A stretch of DNA of 61,674 bases from an uncultured Bacteroidales bacterium (GTDB taxonomy: Bacteria; Bacteroidota; Bacteroidia; Bacteroidales; P3): NCBI GenBank assembly GCA_905235855.1, contig CAJONE010000017.1, positions 1 through 61,674 on the forward strand. The letters run 5' to 3'. Below, piece by piece: positions 30,131 to 40,212 of this stretch. Made by a program: the position numbers and the translations under genes. The notes under the pieces are model-generated. The model ran no database searches. It was not told the origin of the DNA and saw only the letters and a list, made by a program, of their open reading frames with translations. Within the stretch, counting starts at the first letter, position 1. Every line of letters begins with the position of its first letter.

Positions 30131-32164
30131 ATGAAAAAGATTAACTTTAAGCGTTTTTTTGTTGGCATTTTGGCAGGTGTAACCGTGATGATGGCCGCAG
30201 TGTCGTGCGACAACGGGAACAAAGTTTCGGACAAAGAGATAGCCGAGATGCAAGGACGTCTGGACAGCATTATGGGGCAATATGAGCAGTTGAAATCGGC
30301 CAACAAGGAATACGATGGTCAGATGACGCAAAAGGACAGCACCATCAAAGCGCAAGCCGCAGAAATACGTGACCTTTTGGCACAACTGCGTAAGGCCAAA
30401 AGCAGCCAAACAACGGCAAACAGCAACAACCACGCATCGACAACTGGCACCACATCAATGAGCGGACAGTTAGCGTCGGACTGGAGCAAGCAGGAGGCAG
30501 AGCTGCGCTCGAAAGAATCAGCTATCAAAGAGCTTCAACGTCGTCTCGACGCGCAGGAGAAGGAAATTGCACAACTGAAAAAGAACACTGCGGCCTCGGC
30601 ATCCGCCACAGCCAACGTATCGGCCAGCGAGACACAATGCAAGGCACAAGTAGAAAAACTTCAAAAACAGGTGGCTCAGCAGGAAGGAATTATAGCAAGC
30701 CTTAACGGTCAAATTGCATCACTCAACACACAGATTGACGGTCTGAACGGCGAACTGAAAGCCACGGGTTCTTCGAAAGCCGACATCTCGGCCAATGCGT
30801 CAGCCCTGACAAAACAGAACGAGAGCCTGACAAAACAGAACGCCGAGCTAAACACGAAAAACTCACAGTTGAGCGCGCAGATAGCAAAACTTGAGTCCGA
30901 CATCGCGGCACTGAACGACCAAGTAAAAACACTCGGCAACCAACAATCCGCTCTAAATGGACAGGCTTCAACCAATTTGCAGCTTGAAAATCAGGTGAAG
31001 CAACTTAATGCACAACTGACACAACTCGAAAAGGCCAAATCGCAACTTGAGTCGCAGTTGGCTGAATGCAACGGAAGAGTCGCCAACCTGGAGGCCAACC
31101 TAAACAGTCAGAAAACGGCAGCCAGCGGCCAGCTGACTGCCACTCAACAGCTGGAGGCCAAACTGTCGCAGTGTTCCGCAAAATCATCGCAACTTGAGGC
31201 CAGCGTGTCAAAACTGAACGCCCGTGTTGCGGAACTTGAGTCACAGCTTGACAAAGCACAATCCGACCTGGCAAAGAAGAGCACCGATCTGGCCGAGGCC
31301 AACGCCGCCGTGTCGGCCAGTGCCACAGCAAATGTGTCGGCCAATGCAAAATACGAACAGCAGATAGCCACACTGCAGGCACAAGTGGACGGGCAGAAAG
31401 CCGATGTGGCAAGACTCCAGAAACAGCTGGCCGAAAAAGAGGCCGCACTTGCAAAAGCACAGTCCGACGCGAGTGCTGCCCAGAAACAAGCCGAAGCCGC
31501 ACTGAAAGATGCAGCCGAGGCCAAAGCCAACGCTGTGGCATCAGCTTCAGCCAATGCCACAGCATCTACAGCAAGCAACATAAACCAAAAACTGGCCGAA
31601 CTGCAGAAACTGTGTGACAGCTACGCAGCCGAAATTGAGCGACTGCGGGCCGAAAACGAGCAATTGAAGGCAGAAAACACAACACTGCGCTCCGAAAACA
31701 GCGAGCTGCGCAAACTCGACAGCCAAAGCGACAAAATACGCCAAAAGTTGGAAAAAGCCAGCATACTTGTAACCACCGACGTATCAGCCACACCCGGCAA
31801 AAGCATCAGCGGCACAGTGGTGAAAGAGGCATCGAAAGGCGGCGATGTGAAACTGGTTAAAGTAGACGCCACTATCCTCGACAACTACGTCGTAGACCCT
31901 GGCACAATAACAATCTATGCACGCATATCCAACTCCAAAAACCGCTTGGTAAGCAACGAGGGGGCAAATTCGGACACATTCAAGAGCGGCGATACAGACA
32001 TACAGTACACCGCCAAACAGGATATCGAGTTCTGGGGCGGGTCGAGAAAGGTGAGCATCGTGTGGCGCAAACTCGACAGCGTGACGATGGAAGCCGGCCT
32101 CTACTGGGTGACACTTTATGCCAACGGCAACGAGATTGGCAAAACAAGTTTCACGCTGAAATAG
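30131..32164 (+). CDS. Long coiled-coil lipoprotein with C-terminal beta domain
   Basis: The 677-aa protein has a lipoprotein signal with Cys26 (MMAAVSCDNGN). Residues about 35-560 are heptad-rich, dominated by Gln, Lys, Glu, Leu and Ala, and predict a very long coiled coil. Small-residue tracts such as SASATANVSA recur near bases 30600, 31310 and 31545 and look like flexible breaks. The last 110 residues are different: a beta-rich domain (GKSISGTVVKEASKG to ANGNEIGKTSFTLK) with WGGSRKVSIVWRKLD. I recognise no enzyme motif. It could span the periplasm like a tether between outer membrane and cell wall. murL follows 75 bases later. Confidence 0.85.
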   Translation: MKKINFKRFFVGILAGVTVMMAAVSCDNGNKVSDKEIAEMQGRLDSIMGQYEQLKSANKEYDGQMTQKDSTIKAQAAEIRDLLAQLRKAKSSQTTANSNNHASTTGTTSMSGQLASDWSKQEAELRSKESAIKELQRRLDAQEKEIAQLKKNTAASASATANVSASETQCKAQVEKLQKQVAQQEGIIASLNGQIASLNTQIDGLNGELKATGSSKADISANASALTKQNESLTKQNAELNTKNSQLSAQIAKLESDIAALNDQVKTLGNQQSALNGQASTNLQLENQVKQLNAQLTQLEKAKSQLESQLAECNGRVANLEANLNSQKTAASGQLTATQQLEAKLSQCSAKSSQLEASVSKLNARVAELESQLDKAQSDLAKKSTDLAEANAAVSASATANVSANAKYEQQIATLQAQVDGQKADVARLQKQLAEKEAALAKAQSDASAAQKQAEAALKDAAEAKANAVASASANATASTASNINQKLAELQKLCDSYAAEIERLRAENEQLKAENTTLRSENSELRKLDSQSDKIRQKLEKASILVTTDVSATPGKSISGTVVKEASKGGDVKLVKVDATILDNYVVDPGTITIYARISNSKNRLVSNEGANSDTFKSGDTDIQYTAKQDIEFWGGSRKVSIVWRKLDSVTMEAGLYWVTLYANGNEIGKTSFTLK

Positions 32165-32238: not shown

Positions 32239-33597
32239 TTGAATTCCAACCAAAAGAAATACAACACTTACCGTTTGGCTTTCGGCGAAATGGTGTACGA
32301 AAAGTACTCGTACACCATTGATGCCGATGGACTTAAAATGGAATTCACATTCAGGCTTAATGACAAGATAGTTTTCCGCCCTACAGCCGCGATACCGCAC
32401 AGGGCATTTCTGAACTTCGACCAGCCAAAGCCGCTGATGGACACGCTGATATTCAATATCGGCATGATAGAACTGGTAAGCTACTGGAAGTGCGTATGCC
32501 CGAAGGTCGTGCAAGTGTTGCCTCACAGTCTCGACGAAAGGCAAACAGCCTTTTGGAAAAAAATTTACTACAACGGACTCGGCGAGTTTTTCTACACCAA
32601 CGGAATAAAAGCCACGATAGATGACTTTATGGAAATTCATGCGCAGAATCCCGTTGCCGGCGAGCATACGTTGCAGAACACCAGCAGAGGTCTGAACGAC
32701 AACAGTTATCTTGTCCCTATCGGTGGCGGCAAGGATTCGGTGGTAACGCTGGAAATGCTGCGCCAACATGGAGTACGTCCGCTAATTATGAACCCGCGCG
32801 AAGCGACCACGCAGTGTGCCGCGCGCGGCGGTTTTTCGTCCGAAGAAACACTTGTAATAAAACGCCATATCGACCCTCTGCTACTCGACCTGAACGCCAA
32901 AGGATGCCTGAACGGACACACCCCGTTTTCGGCAATGCTGGCGTTCTACACACTGCTGGCGGCCACATTGGCTGGTGTCAGAAACGTGGCACTTTCGAAC
33001 GAGAACAGCGCCAACGAGTCGACCGTGGCAGGTAGTTCCGTAAACCACCAGTACTCCAAAAGCCTTGAATTTGAAAACGACTTCAGAGACTACGCGGCAA
33101 ACTACGTAACACGCGATGTCAACTACTTCAGCTTTCTGCGCCCATTGAGCGAACTGCAGATAGCCATGCTTTTCGCGCGACACGAAAAGTATTTCGACGT
33201 GTTCAAGAGCTGCAATGCCGGAAGCAAACAGGACATCTGGTGCGGCAGATGCGCCAAATGCCTGTTCGCATACATAATATTGTCACCCTTTATCGAGCCT
33301 GCGAGGCTGAACGCCATATTCGGCAAGTCCATGCTCGACGACTGGGAGCTGCGCGGTTATTTCGAGGAGCTTACTGGCCACACCGAAAGCAAGCCCTTCG
33401 AATGTGTCGGCACGATAAGCGAGGTTAACACTGCCCTGCTGATGACGAAACGCCGTTGGTACTCCGACGGTGACACACCCAATCTGCTGAAAACCTTCGA
33501 TTACAAAGGCGATATGGTGAGCACCGAAACATTGTTCAACGACCACAACCTGTCGAAAGACGAACTGGATGCGTTGCGAGATGCCATAGGCGACTGA
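32239..33597 (+). CDS. murL: MurL-like UDP-MurNAc-L-Ala-L-Glu epimerase
   Basis: MurL converts the terminal L-Glu of UDP-MurNAc-L-Ala-L-Glu to D-Glu in an ATP-dependent reaction known from Xanthomonas. With the start at TTG 32239, the 452-aa protein shows YLVPIGGGKDSVVTLEML (PP-loop ATP site, residues 158-174), SNENSANESTVAGSSVNHQYSKS (253-275) and the Cys motif WCGRCAKC (334-341), the set I associate with MurL. An in-frame GTG at 32062 would overlap the lipoprotein gene by 103 bases and adds atypical sequence, so TTG is preferred although no clear ribosome site is seen. A MurD2-type ligase two genes on supports the call. Without it, a PP-loop enzyme of unknown substrate would be the fallback. 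Confidence 0.82.
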   Translation: MNSNQKKYNTYRLAFGEMVYEKYSYTIDADGLKMEFTFRLNDKIVFRPTAAIPHRAFLNFDQPKPLMDTLIFNIGMIELVSYWKCVCPKVVQVLPHSLDERQTAFWKKIYYNGLGEFFYTNGIKATIDDFMEIHAQNPVAGEHTLQNTSRGLNDNSYLVPIGGGKDSVVTLEMLRQHGVRPLIMNPREATTQCAARGGFSSEETLVIKRHIDPLLLDLNAKGCLNGHTPFSAMLAFYTLLAATLAGVRNVALSNENSANESTVAGSSVNHQYSKSLEFENDFRDYAANYVTRDVNYFSFLRPLSELQIAMLFARHEKYFDVFKSCNAGSKQDIWCGRCAKCLFAYIILSPFIEPARLNAIFGKSMLDDWELRGYFEELTGHTESKPFECVGTISEVNTALLMTKRRWYSDGDTPNLLKTFDYKGDMVSTETLFNDHNLSKDELDALRDAIGD

Positions 33598-33647: not shown

Positions 33648-35636
33648 ATGAAAATTCCACTTAAAAGCCATACACCGCTTATAGCATCTTTGTGCAATCT
33701 GGCACTGTCATACGTGATTTATATGCTGTGCCGCATAGTGTATGTGTGGGAGAACTGGAGTCTTTTTGCGACAGGTTGGGAATCGTTAAGCTACGCCGAC
33801 CTATTCTACGGCAGCCTACGTTTCGACAGTTCTGCCATTTTTTACACAAATACCATCTACCTGGCTTTGATGCTCTTGCCCTGCCTGCCAAAGGAGCGCG
33901 ACTGGTGGCAGACCATGTGCAAATGGGTTTACATGGTAATAAACTCACTGGCCGTGGTTGCGAATCTCGGCGATGCCGTCTATTCGCAATACACAGGAAG
34001 GCGAACCACATCAACCGTCTTCAACGAATTTGGCAACGAAGGGAATATCGGAACAATATTGTTCACTGAGATTTTGAACCACTGGTATCTTGTATTGATA
34101 GGTGCAGGTCTGATAGCACTCATGTGGGTGCTTTACACCAAACCCGTTGTGGCAAACGACAAATGCAGGAATATTATACGATGGCGTTACTATGTTCTTC
34201 AGAGCGTAGCATTTTTGTCGCTGTTTCCAATCGCTGTGATATCCATACGAGGCGGAGCCACTCGCGCCGTGCGTCCAATTACAATCAGCAATGCCAACCA
34301 ATATGTCAACCAACCCCACGAGGCCGCCATTGTCCTAAACACTCCATTTTCGTTGATACGAACCATTGGCAAGGCGACATTTGTCGATCCTGGATATTTC
34401 GACAGTAAAATTCTGGAACAGATATATACACCCGAACACAAACCGTTGCCGCCAGACGATGCCGACACGCTGGCCGGACGTTTCAAGGGGAAGAATGTAG
34501 TGGTGCTAATCGTAGAATCGTTTGCACGCGAATATATAGGCTATTACCATAATGGCACTTTTGCCGGCACTTGCCCCGGGATTTCAGACTACCAAGGCTA
34601 CACACCCTTTTTCGACTCTCTAATGGCACATTCGCTGACATGGGAACACACCTATGCCAACGGGCGCAAGAGCATAGATGGAATGCCATCAATATTGTCG
34701 TCGATACCGATGTTTATCGAACCCTTTTTCACCACCTGCTATTCCACCAACCGCATAGGCGGAATCGCAGCCGAGCTTGACAAAGCCGGCTACACGTCGG
34801 CATTCTTTCACGGGGCCGACAACGGGTCAATGGGTTTTCAGGCGTTTGCCCGCACCACAGGGTTCAAAAACTACTACGGACGCACCGAGTATGATGCCGA
34901 CCCGCAGTTTGGCGGCGAGAACGACTTCGACGGCGTATGGGCCATCTGGGACGAGCCGTTTCTGCAATTCTACGTTGCGAGAATGAACGAGATGCAGGAG
35001 CCCTTTGTAACCACTGTGTTCACGGCTTCGTCACACCATCCCTACAACATTCCGGAACAATACAAAGGTATCTATCGCGAAGAGGGTAATCCGATACACA
35101 AATGCATACGCTACACCGACAATGCATTAAGACAGTTTTTCAAAACCGCTATCCGGCAGCCGTGGTTCGGAAACACCTTGTTCATTATCGTCAACGACCA
35201 CACCAACCTGACCAGTTTTGACTATTACCGCACCTCACAAGGGACAATGTGTGCAACAATAGTATTCTACGACCCGTCGGGCATATTGCCTACAGGAGTA
35301 AAAAATGGCATTGCACAACAAATCGACATTATGCCCACGCTAATGTCGCTGCTCGGTATCAAGAGCCACTATGTGGCCTTTGGCCACAACCTGCTGACTG
35401 GCACAGATGAGCCTGGATGGACAGTCAACTACGGGAACGGAATCTACCAATATCTTGAAAACGACACTCTCATCCAGTTTGACGGACAGCAGGTGGTGAA
35501 TGCTTTCGACATGCGTGCCGACCCCATGATGCGACACCCCATTGGACATCATCCACCAAAACACGAAACTCGTCTCAAGGCCATTATCCAGCAATACATG
35601 TCTCGTATGATTAACGACAAACTAACTGTGCAATAA
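33648..35636 (+). CDS. LTA-synthase-like sulfatase-fold transferase
   Basis: The 662-aa protein has about five N-terminal membrane helices (residues 10-215) and an extracytoplasmic sulfatase/alkaline-phosphatase-fold domain. That domain opens with NVVVLIVESFAREYIG (metal-binding Glu), has the nucleophile region YANGRKSIDGMPSILSSIP (Ser in place of the Thr of lipoteichoic acid synthase), and later TVFTASSHHPYN and VNDHTN for metal binding. Such proteins transfer phosphoglycerol or phosphoethanolamine to membrane glycans or lipids. It begins 50 bases after murL and precedes a strong terminator, so it shares the murL transcript. The donor is probably a phospholipid head group. Confidence 0.88.
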   Translation: MKIPLKSHTPLIASLCNLALSYVIYMLCRIVYVWENWSLFATGWESLSYADLFYGSLRFDSSAIFYTNTIYLALMLLPCLPKERDWWQTMCKWVYMVINSLAVVANLGDAVYSQYTGRRTTSTVFNEFGNEGNIGTILFTEILNHWYLVLIGAGLIALMWVLYTKPVVANDKCRNIIRWRYYVLQSVAFLSLFPIAVISIRGGATRAVRPITISNANQYVNQPHEAAIVLNTPFSLIRTIGKATFVDPGYFDSKILEQIYTPEHKPLPPDDADTLAGRFKGKNVVVLIVESFAREYIGYYHNGTFAGTCPGISDYQGYTPFFDSLMAHSLTWEHTYANGRKSIDGMPSILSSIPMFIEPFFTTCYSTNRIGGIAAELDKAGYTSAFFHGADNGSMGFQAFARTTGFKNYYGRTEYDADPQFGGENDFDGVWAIWDEPFLQFYVARMNEMQEPFVTTVFTASSHHPYNIPEQYKGIYREEGNPIHKCIRYTDNALRQFFKTAIRQPWFGNTLFIIVNDHTNLTSFDYYRTSQGTMCATIVFYDPSGILPTGVKNGIAQQIDIMPTLMSLLGIKSHYVAFGHNLLTGTDEPGWTVNYGNGIYQYLENDTLIQFDGQQVVNAFDMRADPMMRHPIGHHPPKHETRLKAIIQQYMSRMINDKLTVQ

Positions 35637-35847: not shown

Positions 35848-38574
35848 GTGTATCTTGAGGACGACATAAAGAGGATATTTGACGGCAAACGGGTTCTGAT
35901 AGCCGGAATGGGACGCGAAGGCAAATCGGCGCTGGCGCTGGTTGAGCGATTAGGAGTTTGTGCCGAGGTTGTCACCGCAGAAAACGACGAAGCGATACGC
36001 ACATCGCTGACTGTAAACAATTTCGACATGATAGTGAAGTCGCCCGGCATACCGATGCGTGTGTTGAACGACTTGTGCCAGAACACCGAAATAACGTCGA
36101 TGACGGACATTTTCCTGCGTGTGTATGGCGACCAGGTTGTGGGAATCACTGGCACAAAAGGCAAAAGCACAACAAGTTCGCTGATATACAACGTATTCAA
36201 GACAGCAGGCTATAAGGTACTGCTGGGTGGAAACATCGGAATACCGCTGTTCGAGCTGTTAGACAAGATGGACGTAACCACAATCGTGGTAGCCGAGCTT
36301 TCGTGCCACCAACTGGAGGGAATCCATCGCGGACCGCATGTGGCGGTGCTGCTCAACCTGTTTCAAGAGCATCTGGACCACTATGGAAGCTACACGGAAT
36401 ACAAGATGGCCAAGTTGCAGATTGGCCTACGACAATGTGACGGCGACACACTTATCTACTGCCGCGACAACGCGGAGCTGTCAGCAATGGTGAACGCCAA
36501 CCGGACGCAATTCCGCTCAAACGTGATTGACTATTCGGCCAACGACGAGCCGATTTTTGGCGATGTCACGACGCGATTGCCAGGCGAACACAACCGAAGC
36601 AACATACAGGCAGTGGCCTGCGTGGCACGCCAATACTGCATCGACGGCGAACTGTTTCGCAAGGGAGTGTCGGAGTTCAACGGCCTGGAACACCGGCTTG
36701 AATTTGTGGGAGTGTATAAGGGAATAAAATTTTACAACGATTCAATATCCACAATACCAGCGGCCTGTGAAGCGGCTGTAAAAGCTGTGGGCGACGTGCA
36801 GACACTTATACTCGGAGGCTTCGACCGCGGGATTGACTATAGCAGCCTCGCAACATTTCTGGCCAAAAGCAACGTGAATAACATAGCGTTTGTTGGAAAA
36901 GCCGGGCAGCGCATCCTGGAGCATTTGAACAGCCTTTACCCCGACCACGGAAAAAACACACATTTGTTTGTTGCCGACAACAGCGATGGCAAGTCCGACG
37001 GCAACGGCACAAAAATCTACCGCCGAGTGACAAACTGGTGCTTCAAAGTGACAGAAGCCGGCAAATGCTGCCTTCTTTCGCCAGCGGCGGCAAGCTATGA
37101 CAGCTTCAAGAATTTCGAGGAGCGCGGTCGTGTGTTCAAGGAACTTGTGCGCAGCCACGTCAGACACGAACTGCACGCTCACCCCGGTCTATCGGGCAAC
37201 GAATCCTATGCCCACGACACAATAGTGGAAAGCCTGAAAGCCTACAAAGACTGCACAGTGTTCACCTATGTAGGAGACCACGAGGCAGCCGGCGACGTGA
37301 TTTCGGCGGGTGAAACGCCAGAATACAAAAGCGAATTTTTCGGGCGCGTAAGCGGTTACGGTGTCGTAGCTGTATTCGGCAATCGCAAAGAGCTGCCAAC
37401 CATAGTCCTACGAGCCGATACCGATGCACTGCCCATAGACGAACAACGGATGCCGTCGACCGAAGACGGACAACCAACAGCCTTATTCGACCTAAAATCC
37501 ACCCCCGACACAGCCGACGACTACGACAATTTGGACTGTTTCGACTACCGTTCGCGCGTCAAAGGCGTATCGCACAAATGCGGCCATGACGGTCACACAG
37601 CAATCATGTTGCGCGTGGCCGACATGATTGCACAGACACCGTCGGTTTACGCCGACAAAAACATTATGCTGATATTCCAGCCCGAAGAGGAAACCGGCTA
37701 CGGCTCGCAAAAGATACTGGACAGCGGCATTATGCAGCGATACAGCATTCAGGGTATCTACGGTCTGCACAACATACCTGGCGAGCCATTGGGCACGATA
37801 CTCTTGACCGGACGGACTTTTGCGGCCGCCTCTGTGGGCGTAAAATACAGCATCACAGGTCGCCAAACCCATGCTTCAACACCCGAAAAGGGACTAAATC
37901 CAGGTTTGGCCGTAGCAGAACTGATCGAAGAGTTCGACAAACTGAACAGCGACCGGAACAATCCGGACAACCGCAACAGCCGCGAAACATCGGGTCTTTC
38001 AAGTCTTTTAACCGCATGGCGTAACAAAAACAAGAACAAGCAAACCCTACCCCAAGACCCGATATCGGGATTTGCCCAAAGCACATTGATAGGGATACGT
38101 CTTGGAGATGAAGCCTACGGAACATCGGCAGGCACGGCAGAAGCCATGTTCACCCTGCGGACATTCTCAAACGCGAGCATGGCAACCCTGCGTGCAAAAG
38201 CCGACAGGATAGCCCACGAAATATGCAAGCGACACGGTTTGCAGCTTTCAGTCAGCGAGAGCGACCCCTTTAAGGCAACGGAAAACAACGCCGACCAGAC
38301 CAACTGGATTGAAAAGGTCTTCACCCAGACGGGTTTCACCGTCAAACACCTTGACAAACCCTTCCGCTGGTCGGAGGATTTCGCCAACTACCTTCAGCAC
38401 TACAGCGGCGCCTTTTTCGGCATAGGAGCGGGCGAAAACTGCCACGAGCTGCACCATCCCGACTACGACTTTCCCGACGGCCTAATCGAACCAGCAGCCA
38501 AAGCATTCTACTCCATACTCCTGAATTCAGAAACAAAACAATACAAACAGCCGAATAACGAAACAAAACAATAA
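35848..38574 (+). CDS. murD2: MurD2-type UDP-MurNAc-L-Ala:L-Glu ligase fused to an M20D amidohydrolase
   Basis: Residues 1-435 are a complete Mur ligase: an N-terminal MurD-like Rossmann domain, P-loop GTKGKSTT (102-109), NLFQEHLDHYG (170-180), FYNDSISTIPAA (295-306) and LSPAAASYDSF (410-420). GTKGKST plus EHLDxYG points to MurD2, which adds L-Glu rather than D-Glu. Residues 436-895 are a full M20D peptidase: RHELHAHPGLSG, RADTDALP (522-529), metal ligands in KCGHDGHTA (577-585), PEEE (612-615), GLHNIPGE (639-646) and ELHHPDYDFPD near the end. No stop or frameshift separates them. The start is GTG 35848. MurL is encoded two genes upstream. The amidohydrolase substrate is unknown; an N-acyl amino acid or muropeptide fragment is inference. 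A short Gln/Asn/Lys tail ends the protein. Confidence 0.87.
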   Translation: MYLEDDIKRIFDGKRVLIAGMGREGKSALALVERLGVCAEVVTAENDEAIRTSLTVNNFDMIVKSPGIPMRVLNDLCQNTEITSMTDIFLRVYGDQVVGITGTKGKSTTSSLIYNVFKTAGYKVLLGGNIGIPLFELLDKMDVTTIVVAELSCHQLEGIHRGPHVAVLLNLFQEHLDHYGSYTEYKMAKLQIGLRQCDGDTLIYCRDNAELSAMVNANRTQFRSNVIDYSANDEPIFGDVTTRLPGEHNRSNIQAVACVARQYCIDGELFRKGVSEFNGLEHRLEFVGVYKGIKFYNDSISTIPAACEAAVKAVGDVQTLILGGFDRGIDYSSLATFLAKSNVNNIAFVGKAGQRILEHLNSLYPDHGKNTHLFVADNSDGKSDGNGTKIYRRVTNWCFKVTEAGKCCLLSPAAASYDSFKNFEERGRVFKELVRSHVRHELHAHPGLSGNESYAHDTIVESLKAYKDCTVFTYVGDHEAAGDVISAGETPEYKSEFFGRVSGYGVVAVFGNRKELPTIVLRADTDALPIDEQRMPSTEDGQPTALFDLKSTPDTADDYDNLDCFDYRSRVKGVSHKCGHDGHTAIMLRVADMIAQTPSVYADKNIMLIFQPEEETGYGSQKILDSGIMQRYSIQGIYGLHNIPGEPLGTILLTGRTFAAASVGVKYSITGRQTHASTPEKGLNPGLAVAELIEEFDKLNSDRNNPDNRNSRETSGLSSLLTAWRNKNKNKQTLPQDPISGFAQSTLIGIRLGDEAYGTSAGTAEAMFTLRTFSNASMATLRAKADRIAHEICKRHGLQLSVSESDPFKATENNADQTNWIEKVFTQTGFTVKHLDKPFRWSEDFANYLQHYSGAFFGIGAGENCHELHHPDYDFPDGLIEPAAKAFYSILLNSETKQYKQPNNETKQ

Positions 38575-38583
38575 CAAATCAAT

Positions 38584-40212
38584 ATGAAAAAAATCATTCT
38601 ACTCGCAACGGTTTTATTTATAACCTTGGGCGGCAGAGCACAGGATTACCCTGTCGACGGCCAGAACTGCACCAGCATCATGGTTGGCAAGAAAGCTTCG
38701 ATGGACGGAAGTGTCATCACATCACACACCTGCGACGGCGTTTACCGCACATGGGTTGCCATCGAACCAGCGCAGGACTACAACTCCAAAGCCGTGGAGA
38801 AAATCTACAAGGGCACTGTCCACACATCTTACCGCGCCGACACCACAGGCATGCGCGAAGTAGGCACAATTCCGCAGGTTGCCCACACCTATGCCTACCT
38901 CAACACGGCTTACCCCTGCATGAACGAGAAGCAGCTGGCCATAGGCGAAACCACCTTTGGCGGTCCCAAATGCCTGGTGAACAAGAACGGAATGTTCAAC
39001 ATTGAGGAGCTTATGCGCCTCATACTGAAACGCTGCGACAACGCCCGCGACGCAATCCACCTGATAGGAGACCTCGTGAAACAGTACGGCTACGGCGATG
39101 AGGGCGAGTGCATAACCATTGCCGACAAAAACGAAGTGTGGCAGCTTGAAATTATGGGCTGCGGCGAAAAAGAGATCGGAGCCATCTGGGCAGCGCAACG
39201 TATACCAGACGAGCACGTCGGCGTGTCGGCCAACATACCGCGCATTGGCCGCATGAACCGTGCCAACACCGAGTACTTCATGGCCTCCGACAACGTGGAG
39301 AAAGTAGCAAAAAAATACAAACTCTGGGACGGCAAGGGCGAATTCATATTCTGGAAAGCATTTATACCCGAATATGCCAACGGAAAGAATTTCCGTGAGC
39401 GTGAATTCTTCATCTTCAACGCATTGGCGCCATCGATGAAACTGTCGATGGATATGGACGAGCTGCCGTTCTCGGTGCGACCCGACAAACACGTTGATGT
39501 GCGCAAGGTGATGGAGCTGTTCCGCAGCACCTACGAAGGCACCGACATGGATATGTGCCGCAACATCAAATATGTAAAGACCCGCAAGGACAAGAACGGG
39601 AAGACCGTGCGCGACACCGTTATGAGCCCTATTGCAAACCCATGGATGACGGGTACCACACAGGCCACCTATAACATGCTTGACGAGAGCGCAGTAGACT
39701 TCAAACGCACCGTGGCCGTGGCTTGGTGTTCATATTCGACGGTAATACAGTTGCGCGACTGGCTTCCGAACGAGGTGGGCGGCGTATGCTGGTTCTCGTT
39801 CGACAATCCGGCCCAGTCACCACGAGTACCCATTTTTTCAGGGACAAAGATTTTGCCCACAACTTTCGCACTCTGTGGCCAAAATGCGTACAGTGACGAT
39901 GCAGCAATATGGAAATACCGCAAAGCCAACAAACTGGCAACTGTGTCATGGCAACGCACAAAAGAGCTAATGAACAAGTCGATCCGCACGCATGAGAACA
40001 ATGCCTTCGGCAAACTCGACGCACTGGAGAAACAGATAAAAACACTTGTCGAGAACCGCGATGAGGCGCAATACGAAAGCGACCGCAATCGCTACCAAGG
40101 CCAAATAGACAACCTGCTGAACGCCTACACACAAAAAATCTACGACCAGACCTCGGCAGAATGGCACGAACTGGAAAACGACTTCTGGTTTATGTTCAAG
40201 ACGGGATTCTAA
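38584..40212 (+). CDS. C69 family dipeptidase
   Basis: The 542-aa protein has a signal peptide (1-19, ending GRAQ) and then the Ntn-hydrolase nucleophile Cys29 in GQNCTSIMVGKKASMDGSV, the C69 signature. Further family blocks are VAHTYAYLNTAYPCMNEKQLAIGETTFGG, GECITIADKNEVWQLEIMG, and WAAQRIPDEHVGVSANIPRIG. It should cleave dipeptides in the periplasm or outside the cell after removal of the short N-terminal segment. It starts 9 bases after the MurD2-M20 fusion, so the two are co-transcribed. Both being peptidases makes a shared role in peptide or muropeptide salvage plausible. Confidence 0.92.
   Translation: MKKIILLATVLFITLGGRAQDYPVDGQNCTSIMVGKKASMDGSVITSHTCDGVYRTWVAIEPAQDYNSKAVEKIYKGTVHTSYRADTTGMREVGTIPQVAHTYAYLNTAYPCMNEKQLAIGETTFGGPKCLVNKNGMFNIEELMRLILKRCDNARDAIHLIGDLVKQYGYGDEGECITIADKNEVWQLEIMGCGEKEIGAIWAAQRIPDEHVGVSANIPRIGRMNRANTEYFMASDNVEKVAKKYKLWDGKGEFIFWKAFIPEYANGKNFREREFFIFNALAPSMKLSMDMDELPFSVRPDKHVDVRKVMELFRSTYEGTDMDMCRNIKYVKTRKDKNGKTVRDTVMSPIANPWMTGTTQATYNMLDESAVDFKRTVAVAWCSYSTVIQLRDWLPNEVGGVCWFSFDNPAQSPRVPIFSGTKILPTTFALCGQNAYSDDAAIWKYRKANKLATVSWQRTKELMNKSIRTHENNAFGKLDALEKQIKTLVENRDEAQYESDRNRYQGQIDNLLNAYTQKIYDQTSAEWHELENDFWFMFKTGF

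Follow-up and report, generated by a model that had tools for sequence, protein, structure and literature searches.

In Xanthomonas oryzae the ligase MurD2 and the epimerase MurL (XOO_1320/XOO_1319) replace glutamate racemase: L-Glu is added by MurD2 and subsequently epimerised by MurL with ATP (PMC8788868). The accessible part of that report names Gamma- and Alphaproteobacteria as well as actinobacteria for this route, Bacteroidota not being named there, and regards it as a narrow-spectrum drug target. Fusions of a Mur ligase with a second enzyme of wall synthesis are likewise known, namely MurE-MurF (NF008896) and MurC-Ddl (NF011171). Here we describe a MurD2-type ligase fused to an amidohydrolase of the M20 subfamily D (M20D) in an uncultured Bacteroidales bacterium (family P3; assembly GCA_905235855.1, contig CAJONE010000017.1, positions 1 to 61,674; this whole stretch of 61,674 nucleotides is the window). 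While the partners in MurE-MurF and MurC-Ddl are ligases, the partner found here breaks amide bonds. Compared with the X. oryzae pair, for which the same L-Glu ligase and ATP-dependent epimerase are reported, the E and R specificity residues are kept, whereas a hydrolytic domain is added as a third component, either fused or adjacent. Bacteroidales MurL-MurD2 fusions (~875-930 amino acids (aa), e.g. P0032), seen in other genera of the family and in part of the genus, combine the same ligase and epimerase in a single chain, however without the M20 part. The M20D enzymes YxeP (1ysj), IAA-amino acid hydrolase (1xmb), 4ewt and acylglutamine aminoacylase (6slf) share the fold and the metal and catalytic motifs, but have no ligase joined. 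Each half and the pathway are already known; what is new is the hydrolytic partner added to the MurD2/MurL route. In agreement with the original prediction, which knew of no such fusion, neither a MurD2-M20 fusion nor a Bacteroidales MurD2/MurL pair was found described in titles and abstract openings of the open-access literature searched.

The fusion is a single open frame at 35848-38574 (+ strand) with 908 codons plus stop. It begins with a GTG that aligns with the start codon of its relatives. The parts of the frame and the MurL homologue upstream of it are:

35848..37155, + strand: MurD2-type ligase half, residues 1-436, with the P-loop GTKGKSTT (102-109), E174/R327/I300 at the L-Glu type positions, and K189
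37156..38574, + strand: M20D amidohydrolase half, residues 437-908 plus stop, with D524, C578, H580, E614, E615, H641, H675 and H869
37114..37179, + strand: junction, residues 423-444, one helix predicted by AlphaFold2
32290..33597, + strand: MurL homologue (NF041275), ATG at 32290, true start possibly ~50 bases upstream

The ligase half matches the NCBIfam murD model TIGR01087 over residues 15-435 (2.6e-83, 280.5 bits, cut-off 211.95), and the M20 half the amidohydrolase model TIGR01891 (168.5 bits, cut-off 153.75). From Pfam, Mur_ligase_M and Peptidase_M20 exceed the cut-off, M20_dimer barely does so and Mur_ligase_C stays below it. AlphaFold2 predicted most of both domains at good confidence (mean predicted local distance difference test (pLDDT) 82.0, predicted TM-score (pTM) 0.77), the last MurD2 helix continuing without linker into the first M20 helix. 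The best fold matches are MurD and M20D structures. The original prediction of a ligase and an M20D domain in one frame is thereby confirmed, and every catalytic motif it named for either half is found in the protein.

The single fused frame recurs in independent assemblies (L089 Tb.RUG.96, L088 RGIG8179 and L090 RUG12008). Among the best 120 of 956 database matches, 28 clusters, own included, cover 98-100% of the fusion query and both its halves. An assembly artefact is ruled out by the presence of the fused frame in other assemblies. The original prediction had also held that separate genes in relatives would point to an assembly join. Separate, overlapping or adjacent genes are indeed commonest in the genus, yet fused frames occur in four clades, and for this reason we do not regard it as a join. 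Within the best 80 of 332 places matched, the titles of the named genome records read Bacteroidales, Bacteroidetes, Candidatus Colimorpha or bacterium P3 and mark nearly all of them as metagenome-assembled or uncultured. Their sources, where given, are rumen, other gut parts and faeces.

In the alignment, E174 and R327 correspond to E197 and R358 of the Xanthomonas MurD2, whose double exchange E197D/R358K results in a D-Glu enzyme according to the accessible part of PMC8788868. Both residues are kept in 128/128 ligase rows (own protein, genus loci and named loci; two overlapping sets). The 39 rows from other genera keep E in 37 and R in all 39 cases. At the position of Escherichia coli (Ec) K319, of which a Thr mutant is reported to accept L-Glu (PMC8788868, in part), the fusion has Ile. 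A415 and Y417 are both unlike the Xanthomonas MurD2; exchanges at the equivalent positions left specificity unaltered as far as the same source goes.

Between the end of the upstream MurL homologue and the first codon of the fusion lie 2.25 kb. The homologue matches positions 24-399 of the 447 of NF041275 (E 7.5e-81, 271.9 bits), a Xanthomonadales model whose cut-off of 700 bits is not reached. A MurL match is present in 113/121 family genomes, including 94/97 good ones. MurI above cut-off was found in none of the 121 family genomes (one weak match, G048), with controls passing in 8/14 cases, and in none of the 97 good ones at E 0.001; the own genome is 93% complete. The D-amino-acid transaminase model likewise exceeds its cut-off in 0/121 family genomes, an absence that says little because 113/121 match more weakly and only 1/14 controls pass. 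The murD model matches eight places in the own genome, of which only that in the fusion passes the cut-off. A canonical D-Glu ligase is made unlikely by the specificity residues together with the absence of MurI.

As the L-Glu specificity residues are kept throughout the 128 rows, we place the ligase in the MurD2/MurL route to D-Glu. Judged by sequence, the fusion is this known route with an added hydrolytic partner, and we consider its anatomy and the pathway assignment, taken together, as nearly certain. The label MurD2 given in the original prediction is supported by the upstream MurL homologue, the lack of MurI above cut-off in the family and the conserved E174/R327. Its interpretation stands with regard to the ligase identity, while MurL and hence the pathway had been left unnamed. 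As to function, it had suggested substrate channelling, recovery of a glutamyl conjugate or an editing activity.

MurL homologues (query 32317-33597, E 1e-20) are common in the order, occurring in 98/295 genomes, two of them via fragments, and in 79/244 good genomes. They extend beyond the taxa named for the pathway in the accessible part of PMC8788868. Most lie in frames of 430-520 aa and are therefore separate genes. Two genomes of the same genus, G099 and G110, have no MurL, M20 or MurI match and match the fusion query weakly; an assembly gap is possible.

Linkage of the two halves was evaluated in two sets of loci. Set A consists of all 49 genomes of the genus with a MurL match, own included, out of 51 examined. 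In G114 MurD2 is located outside the fetched stretch, leaving 48 loci; for G014 and G087 a contig end truncates the M20 that neighbours MurD2, and this M20 was scored as adjacent. Set B consists of the best 80 of 332 matches to the fused query. It overlaps set A, its genus assignment was not checked, and it favours M20 because the query was fused. In set A, M20 is fused to or directly downstream of MurD2 in 47/48 loci: 34 with three genes, seven with MurL-MurD2 fused and M20 next to it, four with MurD2-M20 fused, one triple fusion and one with MurL not seen. In set B the same holds for 77/80 loci, the others being L105, L106 and L132. Among other genera an M20D beside MurD2 is found in 1/43 loci, where it is of another M20D type; for this count two M20D types were sought, six MurL loci without MurD2 were excluded, and 3/43 loci have <1 kb downstream. 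The M20D concerned (L190 4605-5930, - strand, genome G004) is separated by 178 bases from the MurL-MurD2 fusion upstream of it, possibly a second, independent M20D/MurD2 pairing.

In a quick phylogeny built from 90 MurD2 sequences (33/87 inner branches open), the MurD2-M20 fusion appears in four clades with five changes by parsimony: the own protein with L088-L090, L026, L091/L092 and L123. L026 is a triple fusion MurL-MurD2-M20. P0029 and P0030 (1247 and 1260 aa; among the best 120 of 956 matches) show an extra N-terminal part before the ligase, which we read as MurL because PF26298 and PF26299 also mark MurL-MurD2 fusions. Side-by-side genes or several fusions suggest a joint task of ligase and amidohydrolase. 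The original idea of two halves working together gains support from the linkage and the repeated fusion, and M20 is probably tied functionally to the MurD2/MurL pathway.

The M20 half is seemingly intact. Eleven positions (D524, D526, C578, H580, D581, H583, E614, E615, H641, H675 and H869) are free of substitutions in 125 M20 rows, which come from two overlapping sets; residues that are missing are gaps. C578 and H580 are present in all 125 rows, E614, E615 and H641 in 123, H675 in 121 and H869 in 120. The ratio of nonsynonymous to synonymous substitution rates (dN/dS) is 0.125, 0.289 and 0.073 in three of five pairs and saturated in the other two. A pseudogene half is ruled out by the retained catalytic residues and purifying selection. 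We infer subfamily D from TIGR01891 and the relatives in the PDB, which include the acylglutamine aminoacylase 6slf and the aminobenzoyl-glutamate utilization protein 3io1. In the AlphaFold2 model residues 478-502, 527-567 and 704-737 are of low confidence. These inserts are common to the nearest relatives, with variable length, and are probably disordered. In several standalone M20 relatives of the genus the loop that precedes CGHDGHT is very short; the fusion copy has low-confidence inserts instead.

Relatives named for acyl-glutamine and aminobenzoyl-glutamate substrates would fit an M20D half that releases L-Glu from N-acyl-Glu and passes it to MurD2. Free L-Glu is however present in bacteria at levels that few other metabolites reach. 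Little gain is thus expected from supply or channelling, and this very improbable explanation seems the least likely of all.

The M20D half could also be the N-acyl-diaminopimelate (DAP) deacylase of DAP synthesis, joined to MurD2 as both feed peptidoglycan. All eight genomes of the genus that were examined carry a full-length DapD-like transferase (E 1e-81 to 1e-95; the family cut-off is not reached), and DAP dehydrogenase (Ddh) occurs in 0/8. In the own genome nothing exceeds the cut-off of the DapL model TIGR03542, other DapL models not having been searched. From this combination a deacylase is probably needed. The fusion is however not the sole candidate in its own DapD genome (G000), which has a second M20D that fits the role better:

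L188:3292-4491, + strand: second M20D (contig C35), 400 aa, TIGR01891 323.9 bits

Counterparts by size and score are found in 21/25 genomes, own included, and are missing in G006, G007, G018 and G020. The better fit rests on G006 and G018, which belong to g6, a genus with Ddh in 5/5 genomes. It is imperfect, as G008 and G019 carry the C35-type M20 but no DapD match. The C35 enzyme is a candidate acyl-DAP deacylase. Moreover some genera have DapD but lack the fusion-type M20, and we regard a deacylase role of the fusion as improbable.

The function we prefer for the M20D half, if tentatively, is a hydrolytic clean-up. First, the MurD2 half would add L-Glu to the cell-wall precursor. Second, the nearby MurL would, by homology, convert the terminal L-Glu to D-Glu. 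Third, the M20D half would hydrolyse UDP-N-acetylmuramoyl (UDP-MurNAc)-L-Ala-L-Xaa that has not been epimerised by MurL, above all products with a wrong L-amino acid, releasing UDP-MurNAc-L-Ala and the free L-amino acid. Epimerisation would act as a gate by which the correct D-Glu product is protected from M20D. This product should be spared because the M20D aminoacylases in the table of a review, as far as accessible, are L-aminoacylases (PMC11511702). The MurD2/MurL route has to choose L-Glu out of a large pool of abundant L-amino acids, whereas few compounds resemble D-Glu. The M20D half may, though this is doubtful, represent an in-cis editing domain of a Mur ligase that removes wrongly charged L-precursors while epimerisation by MurL locks in the correct ones, a situation which can be likened to editing by aminoacyl-tRNA synthetases. 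We know of no other Mur ligase with an editing domain. A hydrolase that accompanies MurD2 and is repeatedly fused to it makes the accuracy of the route directly testable.

Several points weigh against such a clean-up. If the intermediate with the correct L-Glu were cleaved as well, a futile cycle would result. In addition, the title of a reference in PMC11511702 reports carboxydipeptidases among M20D enzymes. The latter would equally suit a cytosolic (carboxy)dipeptidase that splits wall peptides such as L-Ala-L-Glu and feeds L-Ala and L-Glu back into the beginning of the pathway, which we rate as conceivable but short of likely. In its favour, the own genome contains an Mpl-like frame of 366 aa (named by eye), and a peptidase gene lies directly downstream of the fusion:

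38584..40212, + strand: peptidase C69 gene (PF03577, 4.3e-58), signal-peptide-like start by eye

The C69 gene is present in 22/49 set A loci. Against the dipeptidase reading, it did not appear in the remaining 27, some of which are short, and by eye its product looks secreted; the own genome (G000) moreover has other M20 frames of 471-491 aa, presumably the usual size of general dipeptidases.

The distribution of M20 also provides points against the clean-up. In G109 (L079), MurL and MurD2 are present, whereas M20 has no match genome-wide at E 1e-45; M20 is hence accessory. L105 and L106 lack M20 beside MurD2, M20 elsewhere in these genomes not having been searched. In eight genomes of g2 and g5, whose MurD2 is placed inside the genus on the midpoint-rooted tree, a likely orthologous M20 is found on contigs other than that of MurD2. 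In the eight stretches retrieved around this M20, neither MurL nor MurD2 is found; its neighbour is an aroB-like gene in 4/5 g2 loci, and in 3/3 g5 loci a radA-like gene (names by eye). The unlinked M20 is 39-41% identical to that of the fusion (two compared) and has the same catalytic residues in 8/8 cases. The M20 chemistry may therefore predate the link.

The unlinked M20 and its lack in G109 would also be expected if M20D were a passenger, placed in the operon for shared expression only, with no common chemistry, and fused owing to the ease with which overlapping genes join. Adjacent genes overlap in many relatives, and MurL and MurD2 also fuse, with three changes on the MurD2 tree. On the other hand, M20 is retained at nearly every genus locus and fused in four clades as well as in triple fusions, compared to 0/129 loci (two overlapping sets) in which the downstream C69 was seen fused. 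We thus consider a passenger unlikely, and clean-up of unepimerised precursors remains the preferred function.

Two further genes flank MurL:

30131..32164, + strand: coiled-coil, lipoprotein-like gene upstream of MurL
33648..35636, + strand: sulfatase-domain protein gene between MurL and MurD2-M20 (PF00884, 1.3e-24), LtaS-like by eye

Relatives of the coiled-coil gene are located upstream of MurL in three g2/g5 loci as well (L235, L236 and L238). The near relatives L022, L088 and L089 show no sulfatase-domain gene at this place. Between L028 and L064 (G073/G091) identity within one operon amounts to 99% for C69, 89% for M20, 73% for MurD2 and 68% for MurL. This mosaic divergence suggests recombination.

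Outside the window, contig C7 of the own genome carries a remnant in the murD slot of the dcw cluster, between mraY and ftsW:

L018:6551-7090, + strand: stand-alone MurD C-terminal-domain protein P0123, 179 aa

P0123 matches the murD model only at positions 278-418 (77.7 bits). Such a stub occupies the murD slot in 21/21 dcw loci retrieved on its account, which come from 11 genera, and a stub match exists in 97/97 good family genomes, although in G016 and G066 the match listed lies in the MurD2 frame itself. P0123 is predicted to fold like the MurD C-domain, with a TM-score of ~0.6-0.7 to MurD structures when normalised by stub length, and dN/dS is 0.05-0.10 in three unsaturated pairs. By these comparisons, murD of the dcw cluster has evidently lost its ligase core and retained its last domain under selection.
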